Positions 4,005-57,013 of a stretch of 64,000 nucleotides of DNA are shown piece after piece. The notes beneath the pieces are model-generated. The model searched no databases. It worked only from the letters and a program-made list of their open reading frames with translations, and had not been told where the DNA came from. The stretch is taken from positions 49,800,001 to 49,864,000 of the forward strand of contig CP141127.1 of NCBI GenBank assembly GCA_035236585.1, in the 5' to 3' direction. The translations under genes and the position numbers were made by a program. Source of the stretch: Warburgia ugandensis. Lineage: Eukaryota > Streptophyta > Magnoliopsida > Canellales > Canellaceae. Every line of letters begins with the position of its first letter. Position 1 is the first letter of the stretch.

Positions 4005-4007
<3 letters not shown>

Positions 4008-22874: not shown

Positions 22875-25491
22875 TATTCAAGCACCAATTGGCATACCTT
22901 TTTCAATGAAACTTCAAAATCTAAAACATGGGTCTTCTTAGACTTAGTGTTTTCTATTAAGAATGATCAATTTCAAGCATTTACAAGCATTGATGAAGTA
23001 GAAAATTAGGAACGTATATAGTTTAAAACGCATTGTGATGTTGCCATCCAAATGCATATTCAGGCAATAATTTGTGTGCTTTCTTGACTAAAACATCAAA
23101 ATCTAAAGTCTAGGACTTCTTCAACTTAATGTATTCCATATAGAATGATCAATTTCAAGCATTTAGAAGCATTAAAGAAGCAAAAGATCAGGAACATATA
23201 TTGTAAAAATGAAAGGCAATACTACCATTCAAACACAGATTACAACAACCAAACTTTAAGCAACAATTTGCATTGCTTTTCAAATGAAACTTAAAAATCT
23301 AAACTAAGGCTCTTCTTGGACTCAATTTATTATATCTAGAATGATTAATTTTAAGCATTTAAGCATAATAATGATGATGAAAATTCAAACCAAATATAGT
23401 AAAAAATGCATCGCAATGTTACCATTTAAAAGCATATTCAAGCAACAATTTGCATTCCTTCTTCAATGAATCATTAAAATCTAAAACGCTTGAGTTATTC
23501 AACTCAATGTATTTAATTTAGGCTGATCAATTTCAAGAATTTGTAATCATTAAAGAAGTAGAAAATAAGAAACATATATATTTAAAAAATGCATGGTAAT
23601 GTTACCATTCAAACACGTATTATGACAAGCATACTTCATGCAACAATTTGCGTGCCTTTTGTATGAAACTTCAAAAATCTAAAACATGGGTCCTCTTAGA
23701 CCCAATGTATTCTATTTGGAATGACCAATTTCAAGCATTTACAAGCATTAAAGAAGTAGAAAATCAAGAACATATATAGTACAAAACACATGTTAATGTT
23801 ACCACCCAAGCACTTATTCATCCAACAATTTATGTGCCTTCTTGAATAAAACAAGAAAATCTAAAATATGGGATTTCTTAACCTCAATGTATTCTATCTT
23901 GAATGGTCAATTTCAAGCATTATAGAAGTAGAAAATCAGGAACATATTTAGTAAAAAATGCATGGTCGTGTAACCATTCAAACAAATATTGTAGCAACAA
24001 TTTGCACGCCTTCTTGAATGAAACATAAAAAATCAAAAGCATGCATCTTCATACACTAAATGTATTCTATCTAAAATGATAAATTTAAAGCATTAAAGGA
24101 GTAGAATATCTAGACCATATATAATAAAAAAAGGATAGTAATGCTACCATTCAAATGCCTATCACACCAAGCATTCTTCAAGCAACAATTTACATGGCTT
24201 TTTGAATGAAACATCAAAATCCAAAACACGGATCTTCTTAGTGATCACTTGGAAGCATTCACAATTATTAAAGAAGAAGAAAATTAGGAACACATATTGT
24301 AAAAAACACATGGTAATGTTACCATTCAAAGTCATATTCAAGAACTAATTTGCATTCCTTCTTAAATGAAGCTTCAAAATCTAAAACTTGGGCTTCTTAA
24401 ACTCAATGCATTCTATCTAGAATGATCAATTTAAAGTATTTACAAGCATTAAAGAAGTAGAAAATGAGGAACATATATAGTAAAAAAAATCATGGCAATG
24501 TTACCATTCAAACGCATATTCAAGCGACAATTTGGATGCCTTCTTGAATAAAACTTCAAAGTATAAAGCATGGGTCCTCTTAAACTCATTGTATTTCTTC
24601 TAGAATGATAAATTTTAAGAATTTACAATCAATAAAGAAGTAGAAAATCAGGGATGTATATAATAAAAAACGCATGCTAATGTTACCAATCAAACAGTTA
24701 TTACAATAAGCATACTTCAAGCAACAAATTTCATGCCTTTTTGAATGAAACTTCCAAATCTAAAACATGGCCTTCGTAAATTCAATCTATTCCATCTAGA
24801 ATGATTAATTTCAATAATTTACAAGCATTAATGAAATAGAAAATCAGGAACGTATATAGTTAAAAATGTTTGGTAATGTTACCATCCAAACACATATTCA
24901 AGCAACAATTTGTATCCCTTCTTGAATGAAACATCAAAGTAAAAAACATGGGCCTTCTTAAAATGAATGTATTCTATTTGGAATGATCAATTTCAAGTAT
25001 TTACAAGCATTAAAGAAGCAAAAAATTCAGAGACATATATAGTAAAAAATGCATGGTAATGTTACCATTCAAACACATATTCGAGCAACAATTGCATGCC
25101 TTCTTAAATGAAACATCAATATCTAAAACATGGGACTTCTTCAACTCAATGTATTTAATCTAGGCTGATCAATTTCATGCATTTGCAATCATTAAAGAAG
25201 TAGAAAATGAGAAACATATATATATATATATATATATAAAATTCATGGTACTGTCACCATTCAAACACATATTATGATAAGCATACTTCACGCAACAATT
25301 TGCATGCCCTTTTCTATGAAAATTCAAAAATCTAAAACATGGGTCCTCTTAAACCCAATGTATTCTATTAATAATGATTAATTTCAAGCATTTGCAAGTA
25401 TTAAAGAAACAAAAAATCAAGAACATATATAGTAAAAAACACATGTTAATGTAACCACCCAAGTGCTTATTCATGTAATAGTGTACGTGCT
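22875..25491 (+). repeat. Satellite array block B, about 14 monomers
   Basis: Same monomer and orientation as block A, resuming in register after L0. The marker monomer TTAATGTTACC recurs at 23793, and a degenerate copy (TTAATGTAACC) lies at 25446. Between 10497 (block A) and 23793 about 2.0 kb of satellite remains once L0 is removed, close to the 2.2-2.4-kb higher-order unit. At 25217-25238 one monomer's ACATATATAG word has expanded into a TA run. Confidence 0.95.
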
Positions 25492-31084: not shown

Positions 31085-31841
31085 TGGAAAGTGTTAATTT
31101 GGAAAAGTTTTAATCTTAGAATTTTTACATTTTTAGGGTTTTGCATTAGTTTATTGTTTTAATTGCATTCTTAGGGCATGTTTACTACTTTAAGGTAATG
31201 TATATGTTGATTGAACTGCCATGGAGTGTGAAAATTAATTAGTGAGGGCACCCAACCCCACAAGATCAAGGGTTGATTTCATCACCACTCCTTAGCCCGC
31301 CTAAGATAATCATCACAAGCGTGCAACTCTATCTTTTAAATTAATCCAAAATCAATTAGAAGAGACCTATCGGGCTATCTCATGCTTATAGGATCCTCCT
31401 ACTAAGATGCGATCTATTGTCACTACAGTGGCTTTTGAGCACTGTGTTTATAGAGGGTGTCTTAAAATCCAAGTGATTTTTCCATGCTTTCTTTTGACAT
31501 TTGTTGAGGTCTAAACACTTCCTTACATGAGGATTGTATTAACTACCTTGCGTAGAAGTCAAATCTGAAAGAGAGGAGGCATGCTTGATTAGTCTAAATT
31601 AAAAACATTCTCCCCACACAAATTCAAGAAAGTCAGAATATTGGTTATTATCCTAAGGATTGTTTGACTGTACCTTTTGTTTGTGCATCATGTAGAGTTA
31701 GAGTCAACATTTAGGTTAGGACATTTTAGATTAGGCTAGTTTATGCTAAGGTGTGGATCTCAGAACCCAGAGTTAGTACCTTTAGACCTAGAGATTCAAC
31801 ACATCTATTGACAAGGGGAAAGAAACCTAACTCCTATCCTC

Positions 31842-32551
31842 ATGGCTAAACCACCAGTAGTGACTAAGCACAAAATAATTAGAGACTTATATGCCCCTCT
31901 ACAACTTAATACCCCATCCTACATAGCTTTACCTCCCCCAAATGCTGACCACTTTGAGTTAAAGCTGGGAGTCATTCAATTACTCCCTACATTTTATGGT
32001 CAAGACTGAGAAGACCCCTACCTACATATCAAGGACTTCCTTGATATTTGTGCCTCATTTAGGTTCTAAAACTTCTCAGATGATTCTATTAAGCTTAGGC
32101 TCTTCCCATTTTCACTTAAGGACAAACCCAAGTCATGGCTAAATTCCTTTGAGGTAGGTTCCATACATACATGGGACCAATTGTCTAAGAAGGTTTTGAA
32201 CAAGTTCTTCCCTATTCACAAAACAAATGCCCTTCGTCATGAAATTATCAATTTCCAACAAAGGGATGATGAATAATGTTATGAATGTTGGCAATGGTGG
32301 AATGAACTGCTGCAAAAATGCCCTCATCATGGATTGAGAAATGGCTGCAAGTTCATTACTTTTATGAGGCATTGAAGCTTCAAAATAGACAAATGATAGA
32401 TGTAGGGAGTGGAGGGACCCTCATGTTAAAGGATGAAAGTGAGGTATGGGAATTCTTTCAAATAGTGGCAATAATTCTCAACAATGGGATTAATCAAATA
32501 GAAGAGAAAGAATTAACCAGACCACTAAGAAAGGAGATCTCTATGAGATAG
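31842..32551 (+). pseudogene. gag: Athila-like gag, broken (plus copy)
   Basis: Capsid gene of an Athila-lineage element. The ATG at 31842 starts MAKPPVVTKHK, followed by the conserved LYAPLQLNTPS, HFELKLGVIQLLPTF and EDPYLHIKDFLDICASF words. In-frame stops interrupt it: TGA in 'QD-stop-EDPY' (about 32008) and TAA after FRF (about 32066). Further stops and a frameshift follow near 32276-32340 before the segment FYEALKLQNRQMIDVGSGGTLML. It closes at SMR-stop (32551), where family members normally continue in another frame with KGG-YE. The zinc-knuckle part, present in the minus copy at 54924-54965, is deleted between 32551 and 32580. The two stops and the terminal frameshift are shared with the minus copy. 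Confidence 0.85.
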
Positions 32552-32569
32552 GGGTGCATAATAATCTAT

Positions 32570-33810
32570 CCCAGATGGGCTAGGCATCCCAATTTTTCTT
32601 GGTCAAAGAATAATCACCAAGGGGGACCACCAGTGAACCCCCTACCCAAAATTTTCCTCCTAAGCCTATAGTTCCTCTACAACCACCTAGCTTCTAACAA
32701 TCTCAGCAACCAAAGAAACCATCTTTAGAGGATAGAATTGGGAGCATGATAGCAAAATAGAATGAAGAAACAAAAAGGGCTCTAAATGTCAATTCCCAAG
32801 CCCTATCCAAACTAGACATGCAGGTAAGCCAATTGTCAGCTGAACTACATAACATGGTAAAGGGTAAGTTCCCTAGTCAACCCATCCCTAACCCTAGAGG
32901 TCAATTTGAGATAGGGTCAAGTTCTTAAAGCCTTGACCATCATGAGCATGCCAAGTCCATAATGACCCTGAGGAGCTGTTGTCAAATTGATGACAAAGAA
33001 GGTCAAGCTAAGGAAAATGCAAAGGAGAAAGAGGCAACCACAACACATAAGAAAGAGATTCGATAGATATCTCCTACTCCTAAGCCTACAGTGGAGGCAC
33101 CCTATGTGCCTAAAGCCCCATTCCCTCAATTATTGAACAATGCTAAGAAAGGAACAAATTTTAATGAGACAATGGAAGTGTTTAAACGTGTACAAATCAA
33201 TATTCCATTACTCAATGCTATAAAGGATATTCCTTCTTATGTCAAACTTCTTAAAGAGCTCTGTGCTACAAAGAGAGAGCTTAATGTGCAAATCACCAAG
33301 CAGGTGAGCTCTTATATTATAAGAGATCATGTCATAAATAGGACATTACTTAACTTAGGGGCTAGTGTGGACATATTTTATCTATGAGCAGCTAGGGCTT
33401 AGTGAGCTTAAGCCAACCAACACCACATTGAAATTAGTTGATAAACCAGTTAAGATTCCTCATGGTATGGTTGAGGATGTATTAATATAGGTGGACCAGT
33501 TTTATTTCCCTATGATTTCATTATATTGGATGCCTAGCTTGTAGTAGACCTTGTAATTATATCCCAGTGACTCTTGGATGTCCATTCTTAGTGATGTCCA
33601 ATGCAATCATAAATTGTAGAAATGGTGTATCACAATTATCCTTTGGCAATATGAAAGTTGAGCTCAATGTCTTCAATGCCAACCATAAAAAATCATATCT
33701 TGATGGCTCTTACAACATGATTGAAGATTTAATTCCACAAGTTCTACCACCATTATCCACCTTTGATCCACTAGAGGCTTGTCTTACACATTGTAACTTC
33801 AATTATTAAT
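32570..33810 (+). pseudogene. Athila-like gag end and protease remnant (plus copy)
   Basis: It begins with PRWARHPNFSWSKNN, equivalent to 54780-54840 of the minus copy. It continues through the linker with EAPYVPKAPFPQLL (33091) and reaches the retropepsin site. Where the minus copy reads LLDLGASVN, this copy reads LLNLGASVD: codon 33352-33354 is AAC, so the catalytic Asp has become Asn. A second piece (33567-33809) holds CPFLVMSNAIINCRNGV and FGNMKVELNVFNA, matching the protease C-terminal part. Frameshifts separate the pieces. The homology ends at about 33810 and no RT follows. Confidence 0.8.
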
Positions 33811-35508: not shown

Positions 35509-38256
35509 TGATAAGTGTTTAATTTTGCATAATAACCACCCAATTAGTACCCATGTGTTACAACTTATATTGTTAAATTAGGACTTTTAGACCAAAATTC
35601 ATAACACATGCATTTTTGACCTGCTAAAGCAAAAGTTGGTTATTTTGTAGATCCAAAAGCTAATACAAGGTAAGTGTATGATTAATCAAGTTTTCTAGGA
35701 TTTAATAAAGATTTTTCACTTTTTGTAGTAAGTAAGATGTTGATCTAGTGGTCGAGATCAATTGGTATGAAATTGAGGATCAAGATTAAAAGATCGAGTA
35801 AAAACCTCAAATTTATCAATTCAATGAAAACCAAAGGCCAAGATCATCTTATAGACTAGAAATTGATAAGATTAAATTAGCTAAAGATGGACAAAGTGGG
35901 CCCATGAAGTAAGCCATGTATTTCCACCACCTTTGCATGGAAGGCACCTTAGCCATATAAGCCATGAAAGAAGGTGGCAAGCTAAGGAATTCAATCCAAA
36001 TCATACAAGCCATTCATGCCAAGGTTGAAGCCAATAAAACAAGCCAAGGAAGCCTCCTAAGATAGCCATGAAGCTTAGCCAATGATGCTTTAAAATTAAG
36101 CCATCTAAGCCATCAAGCTAAGTTAAATGGAAGGTTAGGATTGGAGGAGATTCAAGAGAATTAACCATGAGATTTTAAGAGATATTTTGAAGATAATTAA
36201 GGAAAATATTATTAGGATAAGTTGGAATATGACCAATAGGATTTTGATGTTTTTCCCACTTTTTTCATCTTTTTATCACTTTTCACCTCATCACTAAAGA
36301 CTACCACGAGTTTGACTTTCTATTCAAGAGTCCTATCATTCCATAACACTTCCACTATCCTAAACGTCCTTCCTAACCATCTAACCAATCCCCACTTCCT
36401 AGAAAACAACTTAGCCAATCAGTTTTCCCCATATCATCCCACTTTCTTTCTAAAAGAAAAGACGCCTATATCCTTTTCAAAATTAGAAACTAGCCAGCCC
36501 GTACTTCTTATCTCTCTCTCTTATGTTATGTTTATGACATCATCTTGCTAATTTATCTTTCACCTAACCTTCCTCATTCAATACCTTATCCCTAGGGACA
36601 CTTTTCTTATGTTTTCTCCCCTTCCTAAGTTAGGAAACCTTTCATCTACATATAGCCCCATAATCTATACGAATTTTCTAAGTAGAGATGAGTGACATAC
36701 CTTGAAATCATGCTTTCCTTTGGTTTCATTTGCTGCTGGACTTTGGAATACTTTTTATGATTTTCTTCCTTTGGTCTTCTTGGTATTCTCTTGCTTATTT
36801 TCCCTCCAATTCAGGTTAGTAACTTAGATGTTTTACTTTTGTTCCATTGCTTTAAGTTTTCATTGTTTTGGTCCTTAGAATTCATGCTACTTTCTAGCCC
36901 TTAATCTCTTTCTTCTCCACTCCATTCTATAAAATTTTCTTTATTATTCCATCAAGATTCAAGTTATTTATTCTCTGGTAGTGACAACCAAGGGAAGAGC
37001 TAGCTTAAATATTAGATTTCCCCACTTGAATTACATATTTTCTACCCTCTTTTTCTCTTAATTTGTAGTTTATTTTCCTTTAGTTCACCCACTAGGCCTT
37101 TGTTTTTCTCAAATTCCTTTTTGGGTTTTCTTTGGATGAAATTGTACTTTAGAGTGTGAGAATTAGTTTAGAATTTTCTTGTTTTTAGATAGGATTTTAG
37201 GGTTTAGAAAAGTGAACAAATTTTTGGAATTTTGTACAGTTTTATGCTCATAAATATGATGTAAATTGATATGATTCAATAGAGTTCTTTGGTAATTCTT
37301 ATTATGGATTTCTTATTTCATCAAAGTACTTAAGATCTAAGTTTTTTTCTTGCATAAAATTTGTGGTTTCAGTAGCTCTCTAATGCAAGATTTATTGATT
37401 GTTTTTAAGTATTGAAATCTATAAATTGGTTTTTCCTTAACTTTGTGCTTTAATTTCAGCCATCAAAACATGTTATTTTCTTGAATCCTAAGATACCTAT
37501 TTAGATTTTCATGTTGTTTATTAGATCCAATAGTTAGTTCGCATAGTAACTCATTGTAGGTGCATTAGATTTTACCATCTTTAGGGCTCTAGAACCAAGC
37601 ACAAAGTCCATAAACCATGCACAATGGTCTAAATCCCATTCCTTTTAAATTCATGGTTAATTTAGTTTTATAAGTAGTTAATTTTTTGCATCTTATTTTA
37701 GATTTAGAAAGTTTTAATTTTGAATTTTAGAAAGTTCCATCTTTAGGAAGTTTTAGGATTTAAGAAGTGAATATCTCTTTGGTTGTAGTTTTCATTCACA
37801 TGCATGTTTCTAATTTGTTATTAAAGTTAGTTATCTCTCATTATTCATTTGTTTTTTATTTTTGTATTAGAAAGTTTCCTAAATTGGTTTTAGAAAGTTC
37901 TAACTTTAGAAAGTTTCTAATTCTAGTTTAGGAAAGCATTAATTTAGGAAATTTTTAATTTTAGAAAGTGCATGTTTTAGGAAAAATTTTCGTTTTGCAT
38001 GTTTCTTATTTTTTTCTTAGTTTCCATTTCTCATTTTTTTAGTTTCCATTTCTTATTTTTACTTATTTTATAATTTCATATTTTAATTTCCATTCTTAAT
38101 TTGGTAAAAAAAATCACTTGAATTTTGGCTAGGTTAAATTGTTTAAAGTAGAAACTACTAACATCACAATAATTCACTCCTCGTGGGATCGACCTCGCTT
38201 ACGTGAGAATACTACATTAATTCATGCACTTGCGAGTTTTAATTAAAACAAGAACA
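35509..38256 (+). mobile_element. Probable 3' LTR of the plus Athila-like element
   Basis: The proposed start is TGATAAGTGTTTAATTTTG at 35509, just after a purine-rich word. The end is near 38250-38256, where satellite resumes. The terminal part holds GTGGGATCGACC and AATACTACATT (38183-38215), the sense-strand equivalent of the LTR end at 57039-57102. The start is inferred only from word order and could be wrong. Inside are a cluster of AAGCCA words (35890-36120), a pyrimidine-rich stretch (36300-36650) and a TTTAGAAAGTT-rich stretch (37680-37990). No genes are seen. Confidence 0.5.
37680..37990. repeat. Irregular TTTAGAAAGTT repeats
   Basis: About ten diverged copies of the words TTTAGAAAGTT and TTTAGGAAG are spread through this AT-rich part of the LTR. 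Spacing is irregular, so this is low-order repetition and not a satellite. Confidence 0.55.
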
Positions 38257-38902
38257 TGCGTATTACAACAAGCACACTTCGAACAACAATTTGCATGCCT
38301 TTTTTAATGAATGTTAAAAATCTAAAACTTGTGTCTTCTTAGACATAGTGTATTCTATCTATAATTATCAATTTAAACATTTAAAAGAATTAAATAGTAG
38401 AAAATTGGGAACATATAAAGTAAAAAATGCATGGTAATGTTACTATTCAAATGCATATTCAAGCAACACTTTGCATGCCTTCTTGAATGAAAAATAAAAA
38501 TAAAAAACTTGGGCTTTCTTGAACTCAATGTATTCTATCTAAAATGCTCAACCTCAAGCATTTACAAGCATTAAAGAAGTAGAGAATTAGGAATATATAT
38601 AGTTGAAAATGCATGGTAATGTTACCATTCAAACATGTATTACAATAAGCATACTTTAAGCAACAATTTGCATGCCCTTTTTATTAAAACATCAAAATCT
38701 AAAACATGGGCCACTTTGAAGTCATTTTATTCTATCTATAATGATCATTTTCAAGCATTAACAACCATTAAAGATGCAAAAAATTTGGAAAATATTTAGT
38801 AAAAATTGCATGGTAATGTTACCAATCAAATGCACATTCAACCAAAAATTTGCAAGCCTTTTTTAATGAAGCATCAAAATCTAAAACACGGGACTTCTTA
38901 GG
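38257..38902 (+). repeat. Satellite array block C
   Basis: About three and a half monomers in the same orientation as block A. The block ends with the target word TTCTTAGG (38895-38902) next to the hAT terminus. Confidence 0.92.
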
Positions 38903-39098
38903 TAGGCCTGGTAATTCGGGTTGGTGGGTCGTGTTTGTGTCGACACGAACATGACACGTTAGAGTTATGGGTCGACACGAACATGACCCACTTAATAATT
39001 GTGACAAGAATTCGTGACATGAACATGGCACGATTATTAAACGAGTCGACACAACACAACTCGTATAACACGATTAAGTAAATATAAAATAAATAATA

Positions 39099-39172
39099 GA
39101 GGATGGTTTTAGAAGAACCATCCTATATTACATTGTAATATAAGACGGTTCTAGATGAACAGTCCTATATTA
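39099..39172. repeat. hAT palindrome cluster, left outer
   Basis: Two palindromes: GGATGGTT...AACCATCC (39101-39124), then TGTAATATAAGACGGTTC...GAACAGTCCTATATTACA (about 39134-39174, a few mismatches). They are the same unit as the cluster at 40628-40799. Confidence 0.8.
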
Positions 39173-39541
39173 CACTTACATTATACAACTTCCTATCTTC
39201 AATTGACTCAATCACTAGAGTTAAATCCAGGTAAAATCAATTTTACAGACTTACTTTACTAGTTTATTTCTGATTTAAGAATTAGATCCCAACTACATGA
39301 TACCCCTGCTCCCCACCCACTCCCTAGAGCAATGCCCTAGTTCTTTGTTGCAGGGAATGGTGACTGTAAAAACAAGGGCCAAAAAATTCCCTTCCTTTTA
39401 ATCTTATTTGCAAATTGTAAGCACTATGGGAAGATAAGTTCATAAGATTATGGTGCTTGCCGTGTGCTTGTGAATCAAGGTTATCCATAAGTGACGAATG
39501 GTGTTTGAGGCCTGTAAATCAGTTTACACATGATTATATAA

Positions 39542-39599
39542 AACCATCCTATATAATTAAAATATAGGACGGTTATAAGTAACCATCCTATATTACATT
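39542..39599. repeat. hAT palindrome cluster, left inner
   Basis: AACCATCCTATAT and ATATAGGACGGTT (39542-39574) form one inverted pair. The second arm also pairs with AACCATCCTATATTACA (39582-39598). Same unit family as the outer clusters, with one arm shared between two possible hairpins. Confidence 0.75.
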
Positions 39600-39700
39600 T
39601 GATAGAAGTCCTCCAATGAATCATCCTTCCAAATAAAGACAAAAAAAACAAAAGAGCCAACATAGACGATTAAGTAAACCACTACATGGATGACTACTCC

Positions 39701-40306
39701 GACTCCTGTAGATCCAAATCTTCCCATGCCTCTCACTGTAGCAACAAGAACTTCAACTTCCAAAACCTCGGGCGTCATTATCCTCTCAATGATCAATTGA
39801 GCAATCTGATCTCCTTGCTTCACTTCAAAATCAACATCAGAATGGTTGAACAAAATCATGCCCACTAAACCTCTGTAATGGGTGTCAATCACACCTGCAC
39901 CCATGTTGATCGAATGCTTCCAAGCAAGACCAAATCTCGGTGCTGCAAATAACAAGCTCGTCCATTAGTATATCATCAAATGCATCAAAAGGTTTTCTAT
40001 TTCGAGCACATACCTATGCGAGTGTAGGTTCCTTTGGGTATTCCTATGCTTAAATCGGTAGGAACAAGGGCTTTTCCTCTTGTGGGAACGGTTGTTGACG
40101 TAGAACTAGAAAATAAACAAACGATGGAAGATTGAGATGGGCATTGCTCAAAATCATTGATACCCAGATGGATTGAAGCATACATTACCTTTAAAGATCA
40201 TATCTTGCTAAGAGTGGAGAACCTTTTGAAGGTAAACTAGCATTCTCGGAGAGCCTTTTTACTCTCAAAAGAAATAGAAGGTTTGGAGAACATGTGGATA
40301 CGCCAT
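39701..40306 (-). pseudogene. DUT: dUTPase pseudogene with introns, captured in the hAT element
   Basis: dUTPase hydrolyses dUTP to dUMP and keeps uracil out of DNA. The gene reads leftward. An ATG (40304-40306) starts M-A. The reading frame shifts before the conserved RVKRLSENASLPSKGSP. Exon 1 ends at 40189, after a TCA-to-TAA nonsense change in the GYDLSS site (codon 40191-40193). Intron 1 is 40106-40188 (GT..TAG). Exon 2 (40014-40105) holds TVPTRGKALVPTDLSI. Intron 2 is 39943-40013 (GTATG..GCAG). Exon 3 (39942 to 39701) restores the frame across the junction and carries [18 protein letters not shown] (catalytic Asp kept), [10 protein letters not shown] and the C-terminal RFGSTGV. The stop codon after GSTGV is lost. 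Introns show capture at the DNA level, not through mRNA. Homology is my reading of family motifs; no database was used. Confidence 0.9.
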
Positions 40307-40486
40307 TTTGGTTAGTTTTCTAAATTTTTGGGAGGGGGTCGTTGGTTTCAGGGCTTGTGATTTGATCTTGTTTTCCCATTTTTGATTGGAAGCGCTAAGA
40401 ATTTAGGAAAAGAAGGGGACAAGTGGGAAATGAGGCAAGAAGAGAGCCTTTAATAGAGGGAAAATGCATTGAAGAGGTTGCCAAAA

Positions 40487-40508
40487 TTTGGGCGCCATTT
40501 CTTCCCGC
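40487..40508 (-). promoter_or_regulatory. E2F-like sites upstream of the captured dUTPase
   Basis: TTTGGGCGCC (40487-40496) and TTCCCGC (40502-40508) lie about 180-200 bp upstream of the dUTPase ATG. TTCCCGC fits the E2F consensus; the first has one extra G relative to TTTGGCGCC. dUTPase is an S-phase gene, and E2F control of such genes is established knowledge, so a piece of the original promoter was probably captured with the gene. Function here is inference. Confidence 0.45.
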
Positions 40509-40627
40509 AATATTTAGAACATTTTTCATTTGAAAGGGGGAGAAATTAAATCCACTACAAGGACGGGTAGGCATTTTGAAGTGAATCTACTTCAGCAGAA
40601 AGTAACATGTAATATTACAGGACTAAA

Positions 40628-40799
40628 TGTAATATAAGACGGTTCCAAATGAACCGTCTTATATTACATTCACAGATGTAATATAAGACGATTCTAGATG
40701 AACCGTCCTATATTACATTTACAGTTGTAATATAAGACGGTTCCAGATGAACCGTCCTATATTTTAATATAAGACGGTTTTTGAAGAACCGTCTTATAG
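40628..40799. repeat. hAT palindrome cluster, right (four tandem hairpin units)
   Basis: Four adjacent palindromes of about 34-41 bp. The first (40628-40668) has perfect 18-bp arms TGTAATATAAGACGGTTC and GAACCGTCTTATATTACA around CAAAT. The next begin at about 40677, 40726 and 40766, with arms differing by one to a few bases (GACGATTC, CCGTCCTATA). The strand would fold into a row of hairpins. Confidence 0.9.
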
Positions 40800-41027
40800 T
40801 TTCAACCACAGGTTAGATGCGTCAACGTGATGAATAAATAGGTCGTGTGTCAAATAGGTCAACATGATGGGTCGCATTGATTGGCCCGAACACGACACGA
40901 TTTTTGGCATGTCATTTTCGGGTCAACTCGAAAATGACACGAACACGATAAGACTCGACCCAAACCTGCTAAATTCATGTTGAGTTTGGGTCATGTTATC
41001 GTGTCGGGTCATATTTTTCCACCCCTA

Positions 41028-43019
41028 TTCTTAGGCTCAGTTTATTGCACCTAGGATGATCAATTTCATGCATTTATAGTCATTAATGAAGCAAAAAATC
41101 AAGAACATATAGAGTAAAAAAACACATGGTAATATTACCAATCAAACACATATTCAAGCAACAATCTACATGCATTTTTAAATGAAACATCAAAATCTAA
41201 AATATGGGACTCCTTATACTCAATGTATTCTATCTAGAATGGTCAATTTCAAGAATAAAAAAAGTAAGAACATATATAGTAAAAAATGCATAGTAATGTT
41301 ACCATTCAAATGCATACTCCAGCAACAATTTGCATTTCTTTTTGAATGAAACATAAAATTTTAAACACAAGTCTTCTTAAAATTAATGTATTCTATCTAG
41401 AATGATTAATTTCATGCATTTACAATCATTAAAGAACCTGTAAATCAGGAACATATAAAGTCAAAAATGCATGGTAATGTTAGCATTCAAACGCATATTC
41501 CAACAATAATTTGTATGCCTTCTTGATAGAAACATCAAAATCTAAAATATAGGTCTTCATCAATGTATTCTATTTAAAATGATCAATTTGAAGAAATTAC
41601 AATCATTAAAGAACTAAAAAATGTAGAGCATACATTGTAAAAAATGCACGGTAATTATACCATTCAAACGCATATTACAACAAGCATACTTCAAGCAATA
41701 GTTTACATGCCTTCTTAAATGAAACATGGGACTTCTTAGACTCAATGTATTCTATCCACAATGATTAATTTCAAGCCTTTACAAGAAAAAAAGAAGCAAA
41801 CAATTAGGAACATATATAGTAAAAAATATATGATAATGTTATCATTTAAACAAATATTCAAGCAAGAATTGCATGCCTTCTGATTGAAACATAAAAATCT
41901 ACAAAACAGGCCCTCTTAAACTCAATGTAGTCTATATATAATGATCAATTTCAAGCATTTACAATCATTAAAGAAGCAAAAAATTAGGAACATGAATAGT
42001 AAAAAATGCATGGCAATGTTACCATTTAAATGTGTATTACTTCATGCATACTTTATGCAACAATTTGCATGCCTTTTTTTATTGCAACTTTAAAATCTAA
42101 AACAAGGGCCTTCCTAGACTCAAAGTATACTATCTAGAATGATCAATTTCAACCATTTACAAGCATTAAAGATACAAAAAGGCTTGAATATATATAGTTA
42201 AAAATGCATGGTAATGTTACTATTCAAATGCATATTCGAGCAACAATTTGCATGCCTTCTTGAATGAAACATCAAAACCTAAAACATGGGGCTATCTTAA
42301 ACACAATGTATTCTATTTAAAATGATCAATTTCAAGTATTTATAAGCATTAAAAAGTAGAAAATATGTAACATATATAGTAAAAAATGCATGGTAATGTT
42401 ACCATTCAAACAGGTATTACAACAAGCATAATTTTGGTAACAATTTGCATGGCCTTTTGAATGAAGCTTCAAAATGTAAAACATGGGTCTTCATAGACTC
42501 ATTGCATTCTATATAGGATGATCAATTTCAACCATTTACAGGCATTAATGGCGTAGAAAAATAGGAACATATTTAGTAAAATACACAAGGTAATGTTACC
42601 AATCAAACCATATTCAAGTAACAATTTGCATGCCTTTTTTAATGAAACTTCAAAATCTAAAACATGGGTCTTCATAGACTCAATGTATTCTATTTAGAAT
42701 GATCAATTCCAAGTATTTATAAGCATTAAAGAAGTAGAAAATCAAGAACATAGATATTAAAAAATGCATTGTAATGTTACCATTCAAAAGGATATTCAAG
42801 TACTAATTTAAGCATCAAAATCTATAACATGAGTCTTCCTAAGCTCAATCTATTTTGTCTAGGATGATAAATTTCAAGCACAAAAGAAGCAGATAATCAG
42901 GAAAGTATATAATAAAAAATGCATGATAATGTTACTATTCAAACACTCATTGCAACAAGCATAATTTAGGTGACAATTGCATGGCTTTTTGAATGAAACT
43001 ACAAAATGTAAATCATGGG
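41028..43019 (+). repeat. Satellite array block D, about 11 monomers
   Basis: It resumes with TTCTTAGGCTCAG after the hAT element, in register with block C. Monomers show the standard words (GGTAATGTTACC, TTCTATCTAGAATG). It ends in AAATCATGGG where the next LTR starts. Confidence 0.93.
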
Positions 43020-43846
43020 TGTTGTTGTTTTTCGCTAGTGCACGGGCTATTATGGTATAGCTAATGCATGTACGGGTCAATCCCAAAGGGATGCGCTTTA
43101 AGAATTTGGAGCTTTTAATAAAAATTAATTATTTAAAAATTAAAATTAATTGACAAAAATTAACAGAAATATAAATCGGACTTTAGATGTATTTAATCAA
43201 TAAAATTACAAAATTCTAATTTCATAAAACAGAAATTTAACAAAAAAGTTAAGAAAATTCCAATTCCCTGGACTACTTATCTTCAAATTCTACAGATCTG
43301 GTGTCCTAAATCATGATCAGCCTTCATCCACACCTTTCTAGCACTTTTGATTAATTATCCACTGGGGGAAAAGCACAGACCCGTCTGGTTGGTGATGTCA
43401 TGGTGGAGAGAAGAAGAGAGCAGTGATAAGGGGGATGTGGGAAAGGCTAGGGTGAGCAAAATTGGGTTGTGCGTGCCTAGGCTGTGCAATCCGGCTAAGC
43501 AGAGGGCAAAGGTGTAGGTTAGGGTGAACGGTGAATGGTGAAGCAAGAGAGTTGAGGGAGCTCTTGGCTGTTGCTGATAGGATGGAAAGGAAGGTGAGAA
43601 GCAGAGGAGAGGGGTTAGGAATGGAGTGGGAAAGGGATTGACAGTTTTGGTGCGGCTGGTGAATTCTAGGTTGGTGTGTGATGGAGCAGAAGAGATAGGG
43701 AGCGTCGCATGGCTCTAGGCATCATATATGGTGGAGTGCTGGAATCAAAACTAATATGGGTTTTAGCTTGGCCGATGAAGACTATGGAAAGTAGGGGAGC
43801 CTGCGCAGTGAAGATGGAAGACAAGGGGAGTTTAGCAGTAGATGAG
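43020..43846 (-). mobile_element. 3' LTR end of the minus Athila-like element, truncated
   Basis: It begins on the plus strand TGTTGTTGTTTTTCGC, then has CACGGGCTATTATGGTATAGC and GGGTCAATCCC (43041-43084), matching 57039-57102 of the 5' LTR. About 830 bp remain of an LTR that is about 1.7 kb at the other end. The chromovirus LTR interrupts it at 43847. Frames in the purine-rich part are not genes. Confidence 0.75.
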
Positions 43847-49079: not shown

Positions 49080-50500
49080 TCAATGATAGTGGACTTCACG
49101 GCTAAATTTTCTATAAAAGATCTCTCATGACTTATCTCAGGTTTACATTCTATCACCTATTGTAGCAACTTCCATCTCCTAGAAGGTAAGCTTGCACACA
49201 ATCCTTGCATCTTTCAACTCAAAGCATTTACTACTACATTTGTCTTCCCTGGATGGTATTGAATAGAGAAGTCATAATCTTTCAAATACTCCATCCATCT
49301 TCTTTGTCGCATATTCAAGTCTTGCTGCGAAAAGATGTACTTGAGGCTTTTATGGTTTATGAACACCTTGAACTTTTCTCCATACAAATAGTGCCTCTAG
49401 ATCTTTAAGGCAAAAACTATGGCAGCAAGTTCCAAGTCATGTACAAGGTAATTAACTTCATGTCTTTTCAATTATTGTGAAGCATAGGCAATCACCTTCC
49501 CATTTTGCATGAGTACACATCCCAATCCTCTCCCCAAGGCATCACTATAGATCACAAAGCCACCATTGCCTGATGGTAATGTGAGTACTAGTGTAGTGGT
49601 CAACTTCCTCTTTAGTTCTTTGAAGCTTCCTTCACATGTATCATCCCATATGAACTCCACGTTCTTTCTCGTCAACTTGGTCAAAGGTAAGGCAATGCGT
49701 GAGAACCCTTCAATGAACCTATGGTAATATCCCGCAAGTCCTAGAAAGCTTCTCATTTTTGTCACTGTTCTAGGTGTGTCCCATTTTTCCTGTGCTTCAA
49801 CTTTTCATGGATCCACTACAATGCCATGTTGAGAAATAAAATATCCTAAAAAGTTCACTTCCTTTAACCAAAATTCACACTTACTATATTTTGCATATAG
49901 TTGGTGTGCCCGAAGTGTATGTAGTACTATTTGCAAGTGTTCTTTGCATTCCTCAATATTCTCTGAGTAGACTAGAATATCATCCATGAATATTATAACA
50001 AATTTGTCTCGTAGTCTTCAAATACTTGGTTCATGAGGTCCATGAATGTAGTTGGGGTGTTTGCAAACCCAAATGACATCACCTTGAACTCATAATGCCC
50101 GTACCTAGATTTGAATGCTATCTTTGAAATATCCTCTTCCCTAACTCTAAGCTGATGATATCCAGACTGTAAACCAATCTTGGAAAACACAAGAGCTAAT
50201 TGAAGTTGATAGAATAAATCATCTATACATGGTAGAGGATATTTGTTTTTCACTATGATCCTGTTCAACTTTTAGTAATCAATGCAAAGTCTCATTGATC
50301 CATCCTTCTTCTTAACAAAAAGGATTGGGGCTCCCCAGGGGGATACGCTAGCTCTGATGAACCCTTTGTCAACCAACTCTTGAGGTTGAGTCTTCAACTA
50401 CTTTAGTTCTGCTGGAGCCATTCGATATGGTGCTTTGGAGATAGGAGATGTGCCAGGTATCATGTCGATGGTGAAGTCTATCTCCCTTTTTAGTGGTAAC
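49080..50500 (-). pseudogene. Chromovirus reverse transcriptase and RNase H, broken
   Basis: It copies element RNA into DNA. Reading leftward: [20 protein letters not shown] (about 50480), then [20 protein letters not shown] and [10 protein letters not shown], then [21 protein letters not shown] and [21 protein letters not shown] (50268-49993). The catalytic box reads FMDDILVYS (just past 49990), then [10 protein letters not shown] and FLGLAGYYHRFIEGFS. RNase H has IYSDALGRGLGCVLMQ, LELAAIVFALKI and HKSLKYIF, where the family TDHKSL is INHKSL, so a conserved Asp is lost. In-frame stops are at 50398-50400 and 50272-50274, a one-base frameshift lies near 50000, and more stops occur in RNase H. 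Confidence 0.88.
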
Positions 50501-50729
50501 CCTAGTACGTCTTTAGGGAACACCTCTAGAAATTCACAAACTACATCCACTTCTCCTGGTTTAGGCTTTGCCACCTCAATAGCTTCTATCTTAGCTAGGA
50601 AGAACTAACATCCTTGAGCAATATGCTTCACCGCCTTTAATGTGAAAATAACACATACCCCTAAATAATCCTATCTCCCCTGCAATGATATCTCTACTTC
50701 TCAAGAATGTTAAAGGTGATCTTCTTTCT

Positions 50730-51010
50730 TCAACAATTGATAGTTGCATGGTGTAAGGCTAACCAATCCATCCCAAATATGATGTCAAATTCTATCATAT
50801 CTAGGTAGATGAGGTCGATGTTCATGTGCTTGCCTGGAACCACAATTGGTACATCCTGAAAGTATGTTTGTGTGCCAATAGACTTGCCCAAAGGTGTCAT
50901 GACTTCTAAACAGAATTCTAAGTTTTGAACCATATCATCAGTGCAAGAAGCAAACTCCTAAGACATAAAATGTGAAGTGCAGAACTAGTATCAAATAATA
51001 CTCTAGCAAG
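50730..51010 (-). pseudogene. Chromovirus aspartic protease, active site altered
   Basis: It normally cuts the gag-pol polyprotein. The C-terminal half (50933-50730) is clear: DIIFGMDWLALHHATINC matches the family DVILGMDWL..H.A.IDC block. Upstream, the catalytic triplet expected as DTG reads DTS (codons 50984-50992, VLFDTSSALHI). A stop or shift separates the two halves. Confidence 0.8.
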
Positions 51011-51145
51011 TTATTCATAAATGTGAAGTGTACCTTCCATTACCGTGTTGGATGCCTAGGCTTGTCCTGAAGTAATGGTAAACACTCGTCCTTGGCTGTG
51101 CTGAATCTCATCTCCTTTATGCTCTTCCTCTTTCTTCTTCTTATG

Positions 51146-51882
51146 ACAATGAGTGGCTATGTGTCCAACCTCTCCATAGATGAAGCATTTGAAGTAAGGT
51201 GTACATGGCTTGCCTGGATGATACTTTCTACATCGAGGACAAGTTCTAGCTTGTGATGCTTTGCTCTATTGTCGAATTGTCGCTTGAATGGGTATTGGGG
51301 TTGAGAAAACTAAATGGGCCTCTTGCCTTTGTTGAATAGCCCATTGGTGCTGGTATTTTTCTCCTTTTCTTTTCTGTCCGCCAGGGTCCCCTGATAATCT
51401 TTCTCATAAATAGAAGCCATTTCCACTACCTTAGCCATGGTGGTTAATTGGAACCCAATAACCCTATTTCTTAGTCCAGGATTCAACCCATCTATAAACT
51501 TCTCTATTATGCTTTGTTCTGTGGCACACACAGAGGGTGCAAATCTATGGAGACTTGTAAATTTATTTTCATATTGGTTCACCATTAGACTCCCTATTCT
51601 AGACTCATGAACTCCTCTTACTTTTGCACATGTCATGGAAAATATTTCTCATTAAACACGGTCTTGAAATCCTCCCATAGAATAGTCTTACCCTCCTCAA
51701 AGTATATCCTTTCAGTTGTCTCCCACAAGAAGTCTGCTTCACCTTTAAAGACAAAAGTTGCCATATCAACTTTTCTTTCTTCTAGAATCTTCATAGCTTT
51801 GAACAACTTCTCTATGTTAAAGATCAACTTTTTCATTGCATCTAACTCCTCTTCACCAGAAAATGAGGGGGCCATCTTCTGA
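51146..51882 (-). pseudogene. gag: Chromovirus gag with degenerate zinc knuckle
   Basis: Capsid and nucleocapsid gene. It starts MAPSFSGEEELDAM (51875) and contains WEDFKTVFNEKYFP, then in a shifted frame (51636 on) NQYENKFTSLHRFAP and EKFIDGLNPGLRNRV, the usual gypsy gag core. A CPRCRKYHPGKPC motif precedes the zinc knuckle at 51146-51187. The knuckle reads CFIYGEVGHIATHC, where the second Cys of the CX2CX4HX4C pattern has become Tyr, so RNA binding by this knuckle would be lost. The frameshift lies near 51636. Confidence 0.85.
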
Positions 51883-52221
51883 AATCACTCTAACTGGGCC
51901 TCTGTTTAGTCAGTAACCCTCTCTTGTGATGATGCCTTTGGCACAGGTGCTTATGCCTAATTGTTCACAATTTGCTCCATATGTTGCATAAATGACTGAA
52001 AGGATTCTGCCATGCTATTCCCAATTTTAGAAGAACTAGTAGAGGGATTGGTTGTCTTTGGAGCTTCACCTCGTCTCCTCCTAGGTAGCATCTATTTTAT
52101 CAAGAGTCGTTTGATTCGTTTGAGTGCTCTTATCATGCTAGTTAAATTTTTTTTCTTCTAATTATATAAACTAAGTTTAAGTTCTTATCTCTTAACTTGA
52201 CTATGAATGGCTTGAACTTAG

Positions 52222-52233
52222 GCTCTGATACCA
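52222..52233 (-). promoter_or_regulatory. Primer binding site of the chromovirus, tRNA-iMet
   Basis: The minus strand reads TGGTATCAGAGC, two bases from the 5' LTR end at 52236. Same site type as at 2923-2934. Confidence 0.88.
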
Positions 52234-52235
52234 AC

Positions 52236-52660
52236 TATAACGACCCAGGTTTCTAAAATGCTTTTTAAATGCAAAAGATGATTATGATGCGAGATCGATC
52301 TCTATCAAAAGCATTTTGAAAATCAAATGACAAGGGGAAAACATTATTTTTTCTTTTCTTAAAAGGATTGTCAGTAAAATGAGTATTACATTCCTACAAA
52401 AAATCCAACAGAGTCTCCTCTATTTTTTGGACATTAGATATTTAATGCAAATCATTGCAAAGCAACTAATAAGCATTCATTTGATATTTTAATAAATAAA
52501 CAAAAACTTAATGTCCTCAAATCTCAAGACTTTCCAATCACAGTCCAAGTTATGAAAATAAATAGTTTAAGTTAAATACATTACATTCCCATGCAAGTAG
52601 CTACTAAGTCTAATATAACTACATCAAACCTCTAACCTTTTACTTGTTTAATGAAAATGC
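52236..52660 (-). mobile_element. 5' LTR remnant of the chromovirus
   Basis: It begins TATAACGACCCAGG (the terminal TG has become TA) and aligns with 43847-44308, with a gap of about 40-45 bases near 52347. It stops abruptly at GAAAATGC, where Athila-like RT begins. About 3.3 kb of LTR is missing compared with the 3' LTR. Confidence 0.85.
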
Positions 52661-53520
52661 CTGGAGCGTTACAAAGCCCAAAAGGCATACGTCTGTAGGT
52701 GAAAGTTCCGAAAGGGCAGGTGAAGGTGGTCTTCTCCTGATCCTCTAGTGCTATAGGAATTTGGTTATAACAGGAATATCCATCCAGAAAATAGTAATAG
52801 CTATGTCCAGCTAACCTCTCTAGCATTTGATCAATGAAAGGTAGAGGAAAATGATCTTTCCTAGTGACTGCATTCAACTTTCGATAGTCAATACAAACTC
52901 TCCACCCAGTGGTCATGCAAGTGAGGACTAGCTCGTTATCCTCATTTTTGACTACCGTGACCCCAGATTTCTTAGGTACAACCTGAACGGGGCTGACCCA
53001 AGTACTATTAGAGATAGGATATATGACGCCAACATCTAAGAGTTTTAGGACTTCATCTCTAACCACGTCCTTCATGTGGGGGTTCAGTTGCCTTTGAGTC
53101 TCCCTAGAAGGTTTTGCATTTTCTTCTAGATGTATCATATGCATGCATAAGGCCTTTTATGTCTGCTATTGTCCACCCTAAAGCAGTTTTATGTTCCTTA
53201 AGAACATCTAAAAGCTTACCCTCTTGTTCTTTATCTAAGTCTAATGCTATTATTACAGGTAAGGTTTCATCTGGGCCTAAATATGAATATTTCAAGTTAT
53301 CAGGCAAGGGTTTTAGGTCCAAAGACTGTGGGTGCTCTATTGAGGGTATGGGGACAGATTTAGACGGTGGGAGTGGGTCCACATAAGGACCCCACTTAGA
53401 GATATCCATGAGTGGTGCAGCATCTAAAAGATTGTTTACCTCCTCAATAGACTTGTCTATATCAAATTCTCCATTAAAATCCATCAGACAAGCCTCTAGT
53501 GAGTCTGAGATGGACAATGG
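52661..53520 (-). pseudogene. Athila-like reverse transcriptase, cut short
   Basis: The linker (53517 on) holds DLKPLPDNLKYSYLG and ALGWTIADIKG, then a frame change near 53130. The RT part (53144 to 52661) has EVLKLLDVGVIYPISNSTWVSP, VQVVPKKSG, WRVCIDYRKLNAVTRKDHFP, LPFIDQMLERLAGH, FLDGYSCYNQIPIA (Gly to Cys in GYSGYNQ) and RRMPFGLCNAPG. The frame then runs into chromovirus LTR, giving a chimeric C-terminus. The YMDD-type box, RNase H and integrase are gone. The motifs fit the Athila lineage. Confidence 0.88.
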
Positions 53521-54520
53521 TGAATACTCTCATTAATTAGACTCTCAATCAAGTTGACATCACAGGGAACATCGAGGTCTAAATGTTGTTGATCGGCATT
53601 AAAAACATTAAGCTTAACCTTCATGTTGCCGAATGAGAGTTTCATTACACCATTCCTACAGTTAATAATGGCATTGGACGTTGCCAAGAATGGACACTCA
53701 AGGATGACAGGGATTTGACTACCAGGGTCGAATACAGCTTGGGTGTCTAGCACAATGAAATCAACTGGGTAATAAAACTTATCCACCTGGATCAAGACAT
53801 CTTCAACCAAACCATGAGGTATCTTGATAGATCTATTAGCTAATTGCAGCGTGGTAGTGGTTGGTTTCAACTCACTGATTTTTAGTTGCTCATAGATAGA
53901 GTATGGCAACAAGTTAACACTAGCCCCTAAGTCAAGAAGTGCCCTATCTATGACATGATCTCCAATGGCGCAAGTGATTGTAGGACATCCTGGGTCTCTA
54001 AATTTGGGTGGGTCTTGTGTTGAATCAAAGAGCTCACTTGTTCAGTGAGGAAGGCTTTCTTTTGCACATTAAGCTTTTGCTTCGTTGTGCAGAGCTCTTT
54101 TAAGAATTTGGCATAGGCCGGGATATCTTTAATTGCATTGAACAATGGTATATTGATTTGTACATGTTTAAACGCTTCCATTAACTCATTAAAGTTTGAT
54201 ACCTTCCTAGCTTTATTCAATAATTGGGGAAAGAGGGCTTTAGGCACATAGGGTGCCTCCACTATAGGTTCTACAGGGTTGGTCTATATTTTCTCTTTTT
54301 TTACTATTTCTGTTGCCTCTTTTTTCTCTATAGTTTCCTTAGCCTGCCCTTCTTTCTTATCAATTTGACGACCATTTCTAAAGGTAATTATGGACTTGCC
54401 ATGCTCATGAGGGTTATGGTTTTGAGAACTTGACCCTATCTCGATTTGACCCTTAGGGTTAGGGATGGGTTGATTAAGAAACTGACCCTTTCCTCTATTA
54501 TGTAATTCAGCACACAATTT
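53521..54520 (-). pseudogene. Athila-like protease region
   Basis: It holds the linker EAPYVPKALFPQLL (54262 on), NIPLFNAIKDIPAYAKFLK and the retropepsin site at 53922-53933, reading LLDLGASVNLLP. This is the DLGA form of the active site common in Athila elements, with the catalytic Asp present. It continues IPHGLVEDVLIQV and CPFLATSNAIINCRNG. The open frame is broken by a stop or shift around 53912-53948. This copy is better preserved than the plus copy at 33352, which lost the Asp. Confidence 0.85.
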
Positions 54521-55807
54521 GGCTTATTTGTACCTCTAACTTAGCTATGGCTTGAGAGTTGACATTGGCAGAATGCCTACTTTCATTTTGCAATTGGTGT
54601 AAGGCCTTTTTATTATATTCATTATCTTTTGCAAATTGGTCCACCATGGTGTGGATGTTTTCCTCTGAATATGGTTTCTTTTGTTGTAGACGTTGTTGAA
54701 AGCCAGGTGGCTGATGGGGAACTGTAGTTCTAAGAGAAAAGTTTTGGAGAAGGGGATTTACAGATGACCCCCCTTTATGGTTATTCTTTGACCAAGACAA
54801 ATTGGCATGCCTAGCCCATCTAGGGTTGTAGGTCTCAGAATATGGGTTGTCGCTAGGTTGGCGATATGCATTCAATGCATTCACTTGGTCTACAAGATAT
54901 TCAAGAAATGCTTTATTAGATGGACACGCTGAGGTTAAATGGGCTGGACTAGAACAAGTAGCGCATACCTCTTGTGGAGGTTTTTGGGATAATGTAACAG
55001 CCATGAAAGATTGAAACATAGTTTCAAGCTTGTTCATTCTTCCATCTAATTTTTTAGAGACAAAGTCAAGCTTATCGGATAGATCAGTATGTGCTCCTAT
55101 CTCATAGATACCTCCTTTCTTAGTGGCCTTGTTAGTTCATTCTCTCCTATTTGAATTATCCCTTGTTGAGAATTATTAGCTACAGTTTGAAAGAATTCCC
55201 AAGCATCACTTTCATCTTTTAACATGAGGGTCCCTCCACTCACTGCATCTATCATTTGTCTATTTTGAGGTGTTAATGCCTCATAGAAGTATTGAACTTG
55301 CTGCCATTTCTCAAATCCATGGTGAAGGCATTTTTGTAGCAGTTCAATCCACCATTCCCAATATTCATAATATTGTTCATCATCCCTTTGTTGGAAATTT
55401 ATAATTTCTATATGCAGGGCATTTGTTTTGTGAACGGGGAAGAACTTGTTCAGGAACTTCTTAGACAATTGGTCCCATGTATGTATAGAACCTACCTCCA
55501 AGGAATTAAGCCATGACTTGGCTTTGTCCTTAAGTCAAAATGGGAATAACCTTAGCCTAATCGAATCATCCAAAATATTTCAGAACCTAAATGTGGCACA
55601 AATATCAAGGAACTCTTTGATATGTAGGTATGGGTCTTCTCAATCCTAACCATAAAAAGTAGGGAGTAACTGAATTACTCCCGGCTTTAACTCAAAGTGG
55701 TCCGCATTAGTTGGAGGTAATGCTATGGAGGAAGGGGTATTAAGTTGGAGTGGCGCATAAAAATCTCTAATAGTCTTGTGCTCAATCTCTATTGGTGGTT
55801 CAGCCAT
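54507..55807 (-). pseudogene. gag: Athila-like gag, broken (minus copy)
   Basis: The ATG at 55805-55807 starts MAEPPIEIEHK. DFYAPLQLNTPSSIALPP and HFELKPGVIQLLPTF follow. In-frame stops are TAG and TGA in 'FYG-stop-D-stop-EDPY', and TGA after FRF. The rest, from VGSIHTWDQLSKKFL to RKEVSMR (55501-55097), is open and contains NALHIEIINFQQRDDEQYY and QNRQMIDAVSGGTLML. A frameshift at its end separates it from the C-terminal part (55037-54507), which carries an intact zinc knuckle CATCSSPAHLTSAC (54924-54965, CX2CX4HX4C) and NPRWARHANLSWSKNN. The TGA at EDPY, the stop after FRF and the terminal frameshift are shared with the plus copy. Confidence 0.87.
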
Positions 55808-57013
55808 GGGGATAAGAACTAGGTTTCTTTCCCCTTGGTTCTAGATGCGTTGAATCTCTAGGTTTAACGGTAGTAGCTCTGGGTTCTGGGATCGACACCC
55901 TTGCATGAACTACCTAATCTAAAATGTCCTACTTCTAAATGTTAACTCTAATTCTATGTGATGCAAGCAAAAAGGCACAATCAAACACCTTAGGCTAATA
56001 AGCAATATATTGATTTTCTTAAATATGTGTGGGGACAATGCTTTTAATTAGCCTAATCTAGTGCTCCTCTTCTTTAGACTTGATTATTGCTTACCAGTTA
56101 GGTTCTTCGCAAGGTGGTTAATACAACCCTCATGTAAGGAGGTGTTTAGACCTCACAAACATCAACAGGAGGTGAGGGAAGAGCGAGGCTCTATTAGACA
56201 ACCCTCAATAACCACAGTGCTCCAAAGCCACTCGAGTGACAATAAATTGAGTCTTCGTAAGAGGGTCCTACGAGCATCTGATAGCCCTATAGGTCTGTTC
56301 TAATTGATTTTAATTTGAATTAAAGGCTAGGTAGCGCGCTTGAGGTGATTATCCTAGGTGGGCTAAGGAGTGGTGATGAAATCCACCCTTGATCTTATGG
56401 GGGTAGGGTGTCCTTAGTAATTAATTCCACACTCCATGGCAGTTTGATCAGCAGATATATCACCTTAAAGCATTAACTGTGTCCTAAGATGCAAATAAAA
56501 GCGATAAACTAATGCAAAACCTAAAAATGCAACAATTATAAGAGGATGCTTTCTATATGATTTATACTACCAAACAATGCAAATTGACTCTAAATGCAAC
56601 CCTAATTTAGGAATTTAAATGAGTGAGGAAACTTACACTGTGATTTTTGATGAAGATCAAGTGTGGGCCACCTTATCCCACACTTGCCTTGTATTATTAC
56701 AACCCTTTAAAAATTGAAATTAAAAGAGCAAATTACAAAGGGGCCTCACTACAAGCTTCACTCAAAAGGAAAAAAAATCCTAATCTAGGAAAGTAGGGAA
56801 ATTTTCATGTTGATGAAGATTTGGTGGCCAAATTCCTCCACTTTCCTCTTTCCTTGAAAAAGAAAATTTAGAAATAAGTACTAATTTCAAGAAATTAGGT
56901 GGTTATGCACTAAAACAAAATTGCAAAATGCACCTAAAATGCAATTCCTAATATTTTTTAATTTTCTAGATTTTTAATTTTTTTATTTAAATTTTATAAA
57001 AACTCCTTTGCAA
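55808..57013 (-). other. Athila-like leader (5' untranslated region)
   Basis: About 1.2 kb between gag and the primer site with no gene. The part 55900-56545 aligns with the reverse complement of 31090-31840 in the plus copy, including the words CATGTAAGGAGGTGTTTAGAC and TCCACACTCCATGGCAG. Confidence 0.7.

Follow-up and report, generated by a model that had tools for sequence, protein, structure and literature searches.

A hAT-type transposable element that probably captured an entire dUTPase gene together with its introns

A 2125-bp element at positions 38903-41027 of the window (the whole 64-kb stretch of DNA analysed here) is very probably a non-autonomous Pack-hAT that acquired an entire plant-type dUTPase gene at the DNA level, and the captured copy has since decayed. 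The element is an insertion with a target-site duplication, and it contains two introns, homology along the full length of dUTPase and a coding sequence that has lost its function. The alignments and splice models described below support a cargo that comprises the complete coding sequence with both introns, and DNA upstream of the gene was probably taken as well.

Results

The insertion site is an ordinary satellite monomer

The element is flanked by two identical copies of the 8-bp sequence TTCTTAGG, at 38895-38902, where it closes the left satellite flank, and at 41028-41035. The bases adjoining the two copies are unlike on either side (C/A before, T/C after), which fixes the length of the duplication at exactly 8 bp. 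A satellite with a period of approximately 182 bp is present on both sides of the element. Among the self-matches of more than 250 bp in the matches listed, the left satellite extends to 38898-38901 at the furthest and the right satellite begins at 41025-41029 at the earliest.

The empty site was reconstructed by fusing 100 bp of each flank with one copy of the duplication and comparing the product with the satellite by BLAST, a test that is independent of the 8 letters themselves. Fifty-nine of the 72 matches spanned the junction by at least 20 bp on each side, and 47 junction-spanning matches were free of gaps within 15 bp. Averaged over the 20 best matches, the bit score was 163.6 when one copy of the duplication was kept, compared with 141.8 when both were kept and 151.2 when neither was. 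The one-copy join thus restores a satellite monomer and scores best, which shows that the duplication is real and that the site before insertion was an ordinary satellite monomer. The initial annotation had described a 2125-bp element with a perfect 8-bp duplication, and the coordinates, the unlike neighbouring bases and the restoration of the empty site all bear this out. Duplications of 8 nt occur in all of the rice and maize hAT elements annotated by Gisby and Catoni (2022), according to the available text of their report (PMC8903248).

The ends are of hAT type

The inverted ends of elements of the hAT superfamily are short and of the T/CAGGG type. The termini of the present element, TAGGCCTGGTAA and, read from the other side, TAGGGGTGGAAA, are short inverted ends of this kind that agree by eye at 9 of 12 positions, the resemblance being weak past these first 12 bases (10/20 over the first 20). 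The left terminal and subterminal part (38903-39093, plus strand) starts with TAGGCCTGGTAA and contains repeated GACACG/GGGTC words, which presumably resemble the subterminal words of other plant hAT elements. The right subterminal and terminal part (40812-41027, minus strand) ends with CCACCCCTA. When the 200-bp subterminal parts were compared, they matched as inverted repeats, and none of 500 letter shuffles attained their score.

A total of 61 open frames of at least 25 amino acids touch the element, the longest being 123 residues (dUTPase exon 3) and the next 84 residues. As judged from these lengths, no single open frame in the element is long enough for a transposase, and, with a minority of the 61 frames compared with Pfam, the element gave no match to a hAT transposase or to a named family. 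The 8-bp duplication and the letters of the ends are the grounds for the hAT assignment, and the element is best regarded as non-autonomous.

A dUTPase gene with two introns lies on the minus strand

Three dUTPase exons are present on the minus strand of the element, at 40379-40189, 40105-40014 and 39942-39701. Exon 1 (191 bp) is followed by an 83-bp phase 2 intron at 40188-40106 (GTAATGTA..TTTTCTAG), exon 2 (92 bp, placed by the protein alignment and the splice model) by a 71-bp phase 1 intron at 40013-39943 (GTATGTGC..ATTTGCAG), and exon 3 runs to the final codon that aligns with Arabidopsis dUTPase. Both introns have GT..AG borders. This structure was the best of 1374 models, which covered GT/AG combinations giving introns of 50-130 bp with donors confined to two ranges, each model being scored against the Arabidopsis protein. 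The pair of introns given above scored 533, the runner-up 517 and the unspliced sequence 115. Moreover, the T fraction is 0.41 and 0.35 in the two introns, as against 0.25 in exon 1, 0.21 in exon 2 and 0.30 in the first 252 bases of exon 3. The three exons and the introns of 83 and 71 bp had been recognised in the initial annotation, and the ranking of the models confirms them.

With stop codons replaced by X, the spliced product aligned with residues 4-166 of the 166-residue Arabidopsis dUTPase (4oop) at E = 3.8e-64, which is the comparison with plant proteins that had been called for, and it matched Pfam PF00692 at E = 1.6e-33. The identity to the Arabidopsis enzyme is 96/136 in a gapless core of 136 residues, and the alignment needed no frameshift correction. 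The match to Arabidopsis starts at codon 12 (base 40346) of a frame that is opened by a candidate ATG at 40379. In the initial annotation exon 1 was started too late, since it reaches back to this ATG. Because the frame extends this far, the block between the palindromic arrays described below holds the whole coding sequence and a further 224 bp upstream of it.

The element retains two introns, which indicates that a DNA template was used and upholds the earlier proposal that the gene was taken as DNA. The gene is taken to be the host's own, because it is close to Arabidopsis dUTPase. In the manner of Pack-TYPE elements, the present element is non-autonomous, has a TIR structure and a duplication, and carries host gene sequence in which introns are kept. 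In the literature covered, no account of where introns lie in plant dUTPase genes was found, and the text of PMC3082524 contains no word beginning with 'exon' or 'intron'. In searches of other genomes, 84 stretches of prokaryote DNA fitted the search pattern, two of which encode relatives with 56-58% identity in Nitrospinia-type MAGs; nine stretches in viral contigs fitted it and none of these encodes a relative. Both the Nitrospinia-type MAGs and the viral contigs were rejected as a source of plant DNA, since neither is plant.

On the 3′ side, the exon 3 frame stays open past its final aligned codon, which ends at 39701, as far as a TAA at 39595. The stop codon of the captured gene may have been lost. 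The initial annotation spoke of a lost stop, of which the continuation of the frame is borne out and the loss itself is something that we infer. The stretch at 39601-39700 (minus strand) is probably the former 3′ end of the gene together with 3′ flanking DNA, its boundary being suggested by the adjacent palindromic unit.

The region upstream of the candidate ATG (40380-40603, minus strand) probably consists of 5′ UTR and promoter-proximal DNA, although we infer both its outer boundary and the identity of the promoter. It contains two GC-rich words within 20 bp of sequence, GGGCGCC at 40490 and TTCCCGC at 40502. Across both strands of the window, TTCCCGC occurs nowhere else and GGGCGCC occurs once more, at 29155 on the opposite strand. 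These words might be the remnant of a promoter. An E2F-type promoter was considered and rejected: the strict E2F pattern, WTTSSCSS, is not matched anywhere in the upstream region, and its two occurrences in the element are at 40880 and 39383. No paper linking dUTPase to E2F target genes in Arabidopsis came up in a literature search.

The coding copy has decayed

Exon 1 contains two nonsense codons, a TAG at 40322 and a TAA at 40193; a single nonsense codon in this exon had been reported previously, so the presence of premature termination stands and the count does not. In addition, the element is changed at 9 of the 67 sites that are invariant in four eukaryotic enzymes. Seven of these nine changes can be explained by a single C:G-to-T:A step (six G to A, one C to T), four of the seven being in a CpG context, and of the remaining two one requires a G to C change and the other requires two changes. 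When each functional enzyme was left out in turn, the departures of the element and of the omitted enzyme from the invariant sites were 13 versus 5 of 72, 10 versus 4 of 71, 12 versus 10 of 77 and 11 versus 10 of 77, that is, a clear gap in two of the controls and barely any in the other two.

Three motifs that we take to belong to the catalytic site of dUTPase are altered, AGYDL to ARYDL, PRSG to PRFG and GGFGSTG to GRFGSTG. The copy therefore has neither the open frame nor the conserved motifs of a functional dUTPase. The two nonsense codons and the alterations at invariant sites identify it as a pseudogene that is unable to encode a full-length enzyme, in keeping with the earlier view that it is not a working enzyme now.

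The CpG ratio is 0.50 in the dUTPase block, 1.7 and 1.26 in the two ends, 0.76 in the whole element and 0.31 in the window. The ratios of the ends are far above that of the window, indicating that the ends have not lost CpG. The decay might reflect the silencing and methylation of a transposon, an interpretation with which these values agree only in part.

Palindromic units adjoin the gene

Seven clear copies of a near-palindromic 49-bp unit are present in the element, two at 39094-39180 (the left units), one at 39561-39599 and four at 40627-40811. The clear copies score 51-90, the maximum over 200 shuffles of the element being 32. The middle units occupy 39532-39600, in which the copy at 39561-39599 scores 51; a second candidate at 39513-39554 (score 24) is within the range of the shuffles. 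The right array, delimited at 40604-40811, comprises the four clear units and a possible 9-bp remnant at 40607-40615, the score of which (18) is likewise within the shuffle range. The right array has a predicted folding energy of -86.7 kcal/mol, compared with -32.6 kcal/mol for shuffled sequences (z = -14.7), and three shorter palindromic pieces fold at z = -7.3, -4.7 and -11.0.

Both the dUTPase block and a segment of approximately 350 bp at 39181-39531 are situated between palindromic arrays. The latter, which lies between the left and the middle units, is possibly a second captured piece. Five peptides covering 39279-39567 had no match in Pfam at E values up to 1. Over 39186-39531 the CpG ratio is 0.16, which is low in comparison with the dUTPase block (0.50) and the ends (1.26-1.7). 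A 15-bp near-direct repeat (39676 and 40549) was considered as a mark of the capture junctions and was rejected, because two pairs agree at 13 of 15 positions and 2 of 20 shuffles equalled that.

When the whole element was compared with the rest of the 64-kb window, only two matches of 20-25 bp (E = 0.4) were obtained, and the window contains no second copy of the element with its cargo.

Discussion

How the gene may have entered the element

A copy of the dUTPase gene may have entered the element through template switching as a break was repaired, perhaps at the adjacent palindromic arrays, and we put this forward tentatively, as a proposal that falls somewhat short of an even chance. The element with its cargo would then have inserted into the satellite array and generated the 8-bp target-site duplication, and decay after capture would have introduced the nonsense codons and the changes at invariant sites, mostly C:G to T:A. 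In animals, there is support for the copying of host DNA into TIR elements by gap filling, with microhomology at the breakpoints and breakpoints skewed internally, as described in PMC8277862, and filler DNA at excision sites has been documented in rice in the available text of PMC4423477. The palindromic arrays make a gap-filling route attractive for the present element. That arrays beside the gene offered a place for breakage and template switching is plausible but unproven.

Three other routes, set out next, would lead to the same kind of object, and their odds overlap those of the preferred explanation. In the first, a small hAT element with palindromic arrays inserted into the satellite without any cargo, and an internal break was later filled in place with a copy of the dUTPase gene, which would never have been mobile. 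This has a substantial, if less than even, likelihood, since most single-copy animal Pack-TIRs are consistent with it and their breakpoints are skewed internally, at least in the portion of PMC8277862 that treats them; moreover, palindromic arrays adjoining the gene would be natural sites of breakage. The support for this model nevertheless comes from animals (PMC8277862), and one copy of the element provides no separation from capture before insertion.

The second route, which we regard as a minority possibility, is that two related hAT copies inserted on both sides of a dUTPase gene, either the original or a duplicate, and that their outer ends then moved together. Tandem insertion and re-mobilisation is the other route proposed for plant Pack-TYPE elements, with hAT examples among those given for all DNA superfamilies (PMC8903248; reviewed in PMC13317346, as far as the text of both extends). 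The dUTPase block is indeed contiguous, with a length of at most about 1 kb. However, self-comparison shows that the interior of the element does not match the hAT ends, and extra steps would be needed to explain palindromic units on both sides of the gene as well as in the middle of the element. The single copy is equally compatible with a capture that preceded insertion, with in-place filling and with re-mobilisation.

If capture did proceed by break repair, a stronger version of that proposal would be that the 49-bp units are hot spots for capture, at which foldback arrays break or cause replication to stall, whole host genes then being loaded between the arrays, with introns and upstream DNA, by template switching during repair. 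The segment at 39181-39531 and the dUTPase gene would then be two separate loads. We consider this reading as a whole unlikely. The coincidence between the edges of the arrays and those of the cargo is not independent evidence for it, because the edges of the segments were drawn from the arrays.

The third route would have the arrays derive from an older CACTA-type or foldback element that took up the gene and was itself engulfed by the hAT element. Palindromic subterminal repeats are known in CACTA elements such as soybean Tgmt* (PMC2613891, in the part available), and the present element contains five CACTA words. It contains no TAGTG, however, which excludes an intact inner CACTA pair, and its outer duplication is 8 bp rather than 3 bp, so that an inner CACTA element was rejected; nested capture as such appears improbable.

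It is very improbable that the pseudogene is regulatory, in the sense that the element is transcribed and that its strong hairpins are a source of small RNAs acting on the parental dUTPase gene: the marked folding of the right array is what would be expected of such a source, but this array is not part of the aligned dUTPase exons or introns, the coding part is altered at 9 of 67 invariant sites, and the idea is somewhat weakened by the lethality of DUT1 RNAi in Arabidopsis. In that work, as described in the accessible text of PMC3082524, induced RNAi killed seedlings and two lines with 12% and 34% of the normal mRNA level survived, which suggests that strong silencing of the parental gene would be harmful and that mild silencing might be tolerated.

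Relation to known gene-carrying elements

The preferred explanation, capture of a whole gene by a non-autonomous hAT element, places the present case among elements for which the term Pack-hAT is already used in the literature. Gene-carrying hAT elements, some with introns, have been described in maize, grapevine and animals, as far as the reports cited below go. Maize Pack-hATs (Gisby and Catoni, 2022; PMC8903248) are likewise non-autonomous elements with hAT inverted ends, an 8-bp duplication and host gene sequence, and the present element differs from them, on the account given there, in that one gene is present over its entire coding length, the two introns included. The maize elements Ds2-22 and Ds-l4-354 (Du et al., 2011; PMC3260210) are also small hAT elements in which gene pieces keep their introns and were thus taken from DNA. 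By the description in that article, Ds2-22 holds two exons and one intron and Ds-l4-354 a gene fragment, whereas the homology here covers residues 4-166 of 166. Many maize Ds-l elements are found in repetitive DNA in the same report, as the present element is found in a satellite, and an entire gene, coding for a hypothetical protein, is annotated in Ds2-18.

In grapevine, the hAT family Hatvine-6 also carries genic exons and introns (PMC2528002); according to the available text its members share a common transposase coding sequence, in contrast to the present element, which has no frame of transposase length. Animal Pack-TIRs, which include Pack-hAT-N8_XT and Ssk-FB4, are similarly TIR elements with copied host DNA (PMC8277862). 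Ssk-FB4 carries a gene with introns, as is the case here, and the authors connect template switching with the repetitive ends of FB4, but Ssk-FB4 is an animal element that is treated as a Pack-MULE and not as a hAT element in the part of the article available. Soybean Tgmt* (PMC2613891) shares with the present element palindrome-forming repeats inside both ends and, as described, differs from it in having CACTA ends, a 3-bp duplication and a transposase gene.

The initial annotation held that gene capture by small hAT elements is seldom described. Du et al. (2011; PMC3260210) do call it 'a rare feature' of hAT elements, but Hatvine-6, the maize Pack-hATs and the animal Pack-TIRs, 208 of 370 of which are hAT elements in the available account (PMC8277862), limit that claim. 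In the portions of the literature that were searched, no plant hAT element was found to carry a known housekeeping gene in complete form. The present element thus looks like an unusually complete case of a known route of gene capture.

Apparently, the cargo of a small cut-and-paste transposon can be a housekeeping gene in its entirety and not only fragments, and the case shows how plant genomes may come to be seeded with dead and occasionally useful gene duplicates. The palindromic arrays beside the cargo suggest, in a form open to testing, the sites at which such elements break and are refilled. It is also a trap for annotation, in that a nearly complete dUTPase gene model is the cargo of a transposon.

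Other features of the window

Blocks of the approximately 182-bp satellite are present in the window at 5758-11574, 22872-25490, 38253-43020 and 58730-59540, and the dUTPase-bearing element lies inside one of them. Periods of 346-383 bp also occur in these blocks, their long matches are mostly 72-89% alike, and other DNA is interspersed.

The minus strand of 49472-55534 contains broken LTR-retrotransposon genes of one or more elements, with domains of gag (PF03732), aspartic protease (PF13650), reverse transcriptase (PF00078) and RNase H (PF17919). Two inverted pairs link 31114-33292 with 54061-56543 (83% over 1486 bp and 79% over 514 bp) and probably mark an inverted copy of a portion of that retrotransposon, judging from these matches. 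No match to Rfam was obtained in the window at gathering scores. A dispersed repeat of approximately 1 kb occurs at 809-2006, 14588-15729 and 17794-18771 in two orientations, its copies being 79-84% identical, and a run of approximately 50 GA dinucleotides occupies 3917-4016.
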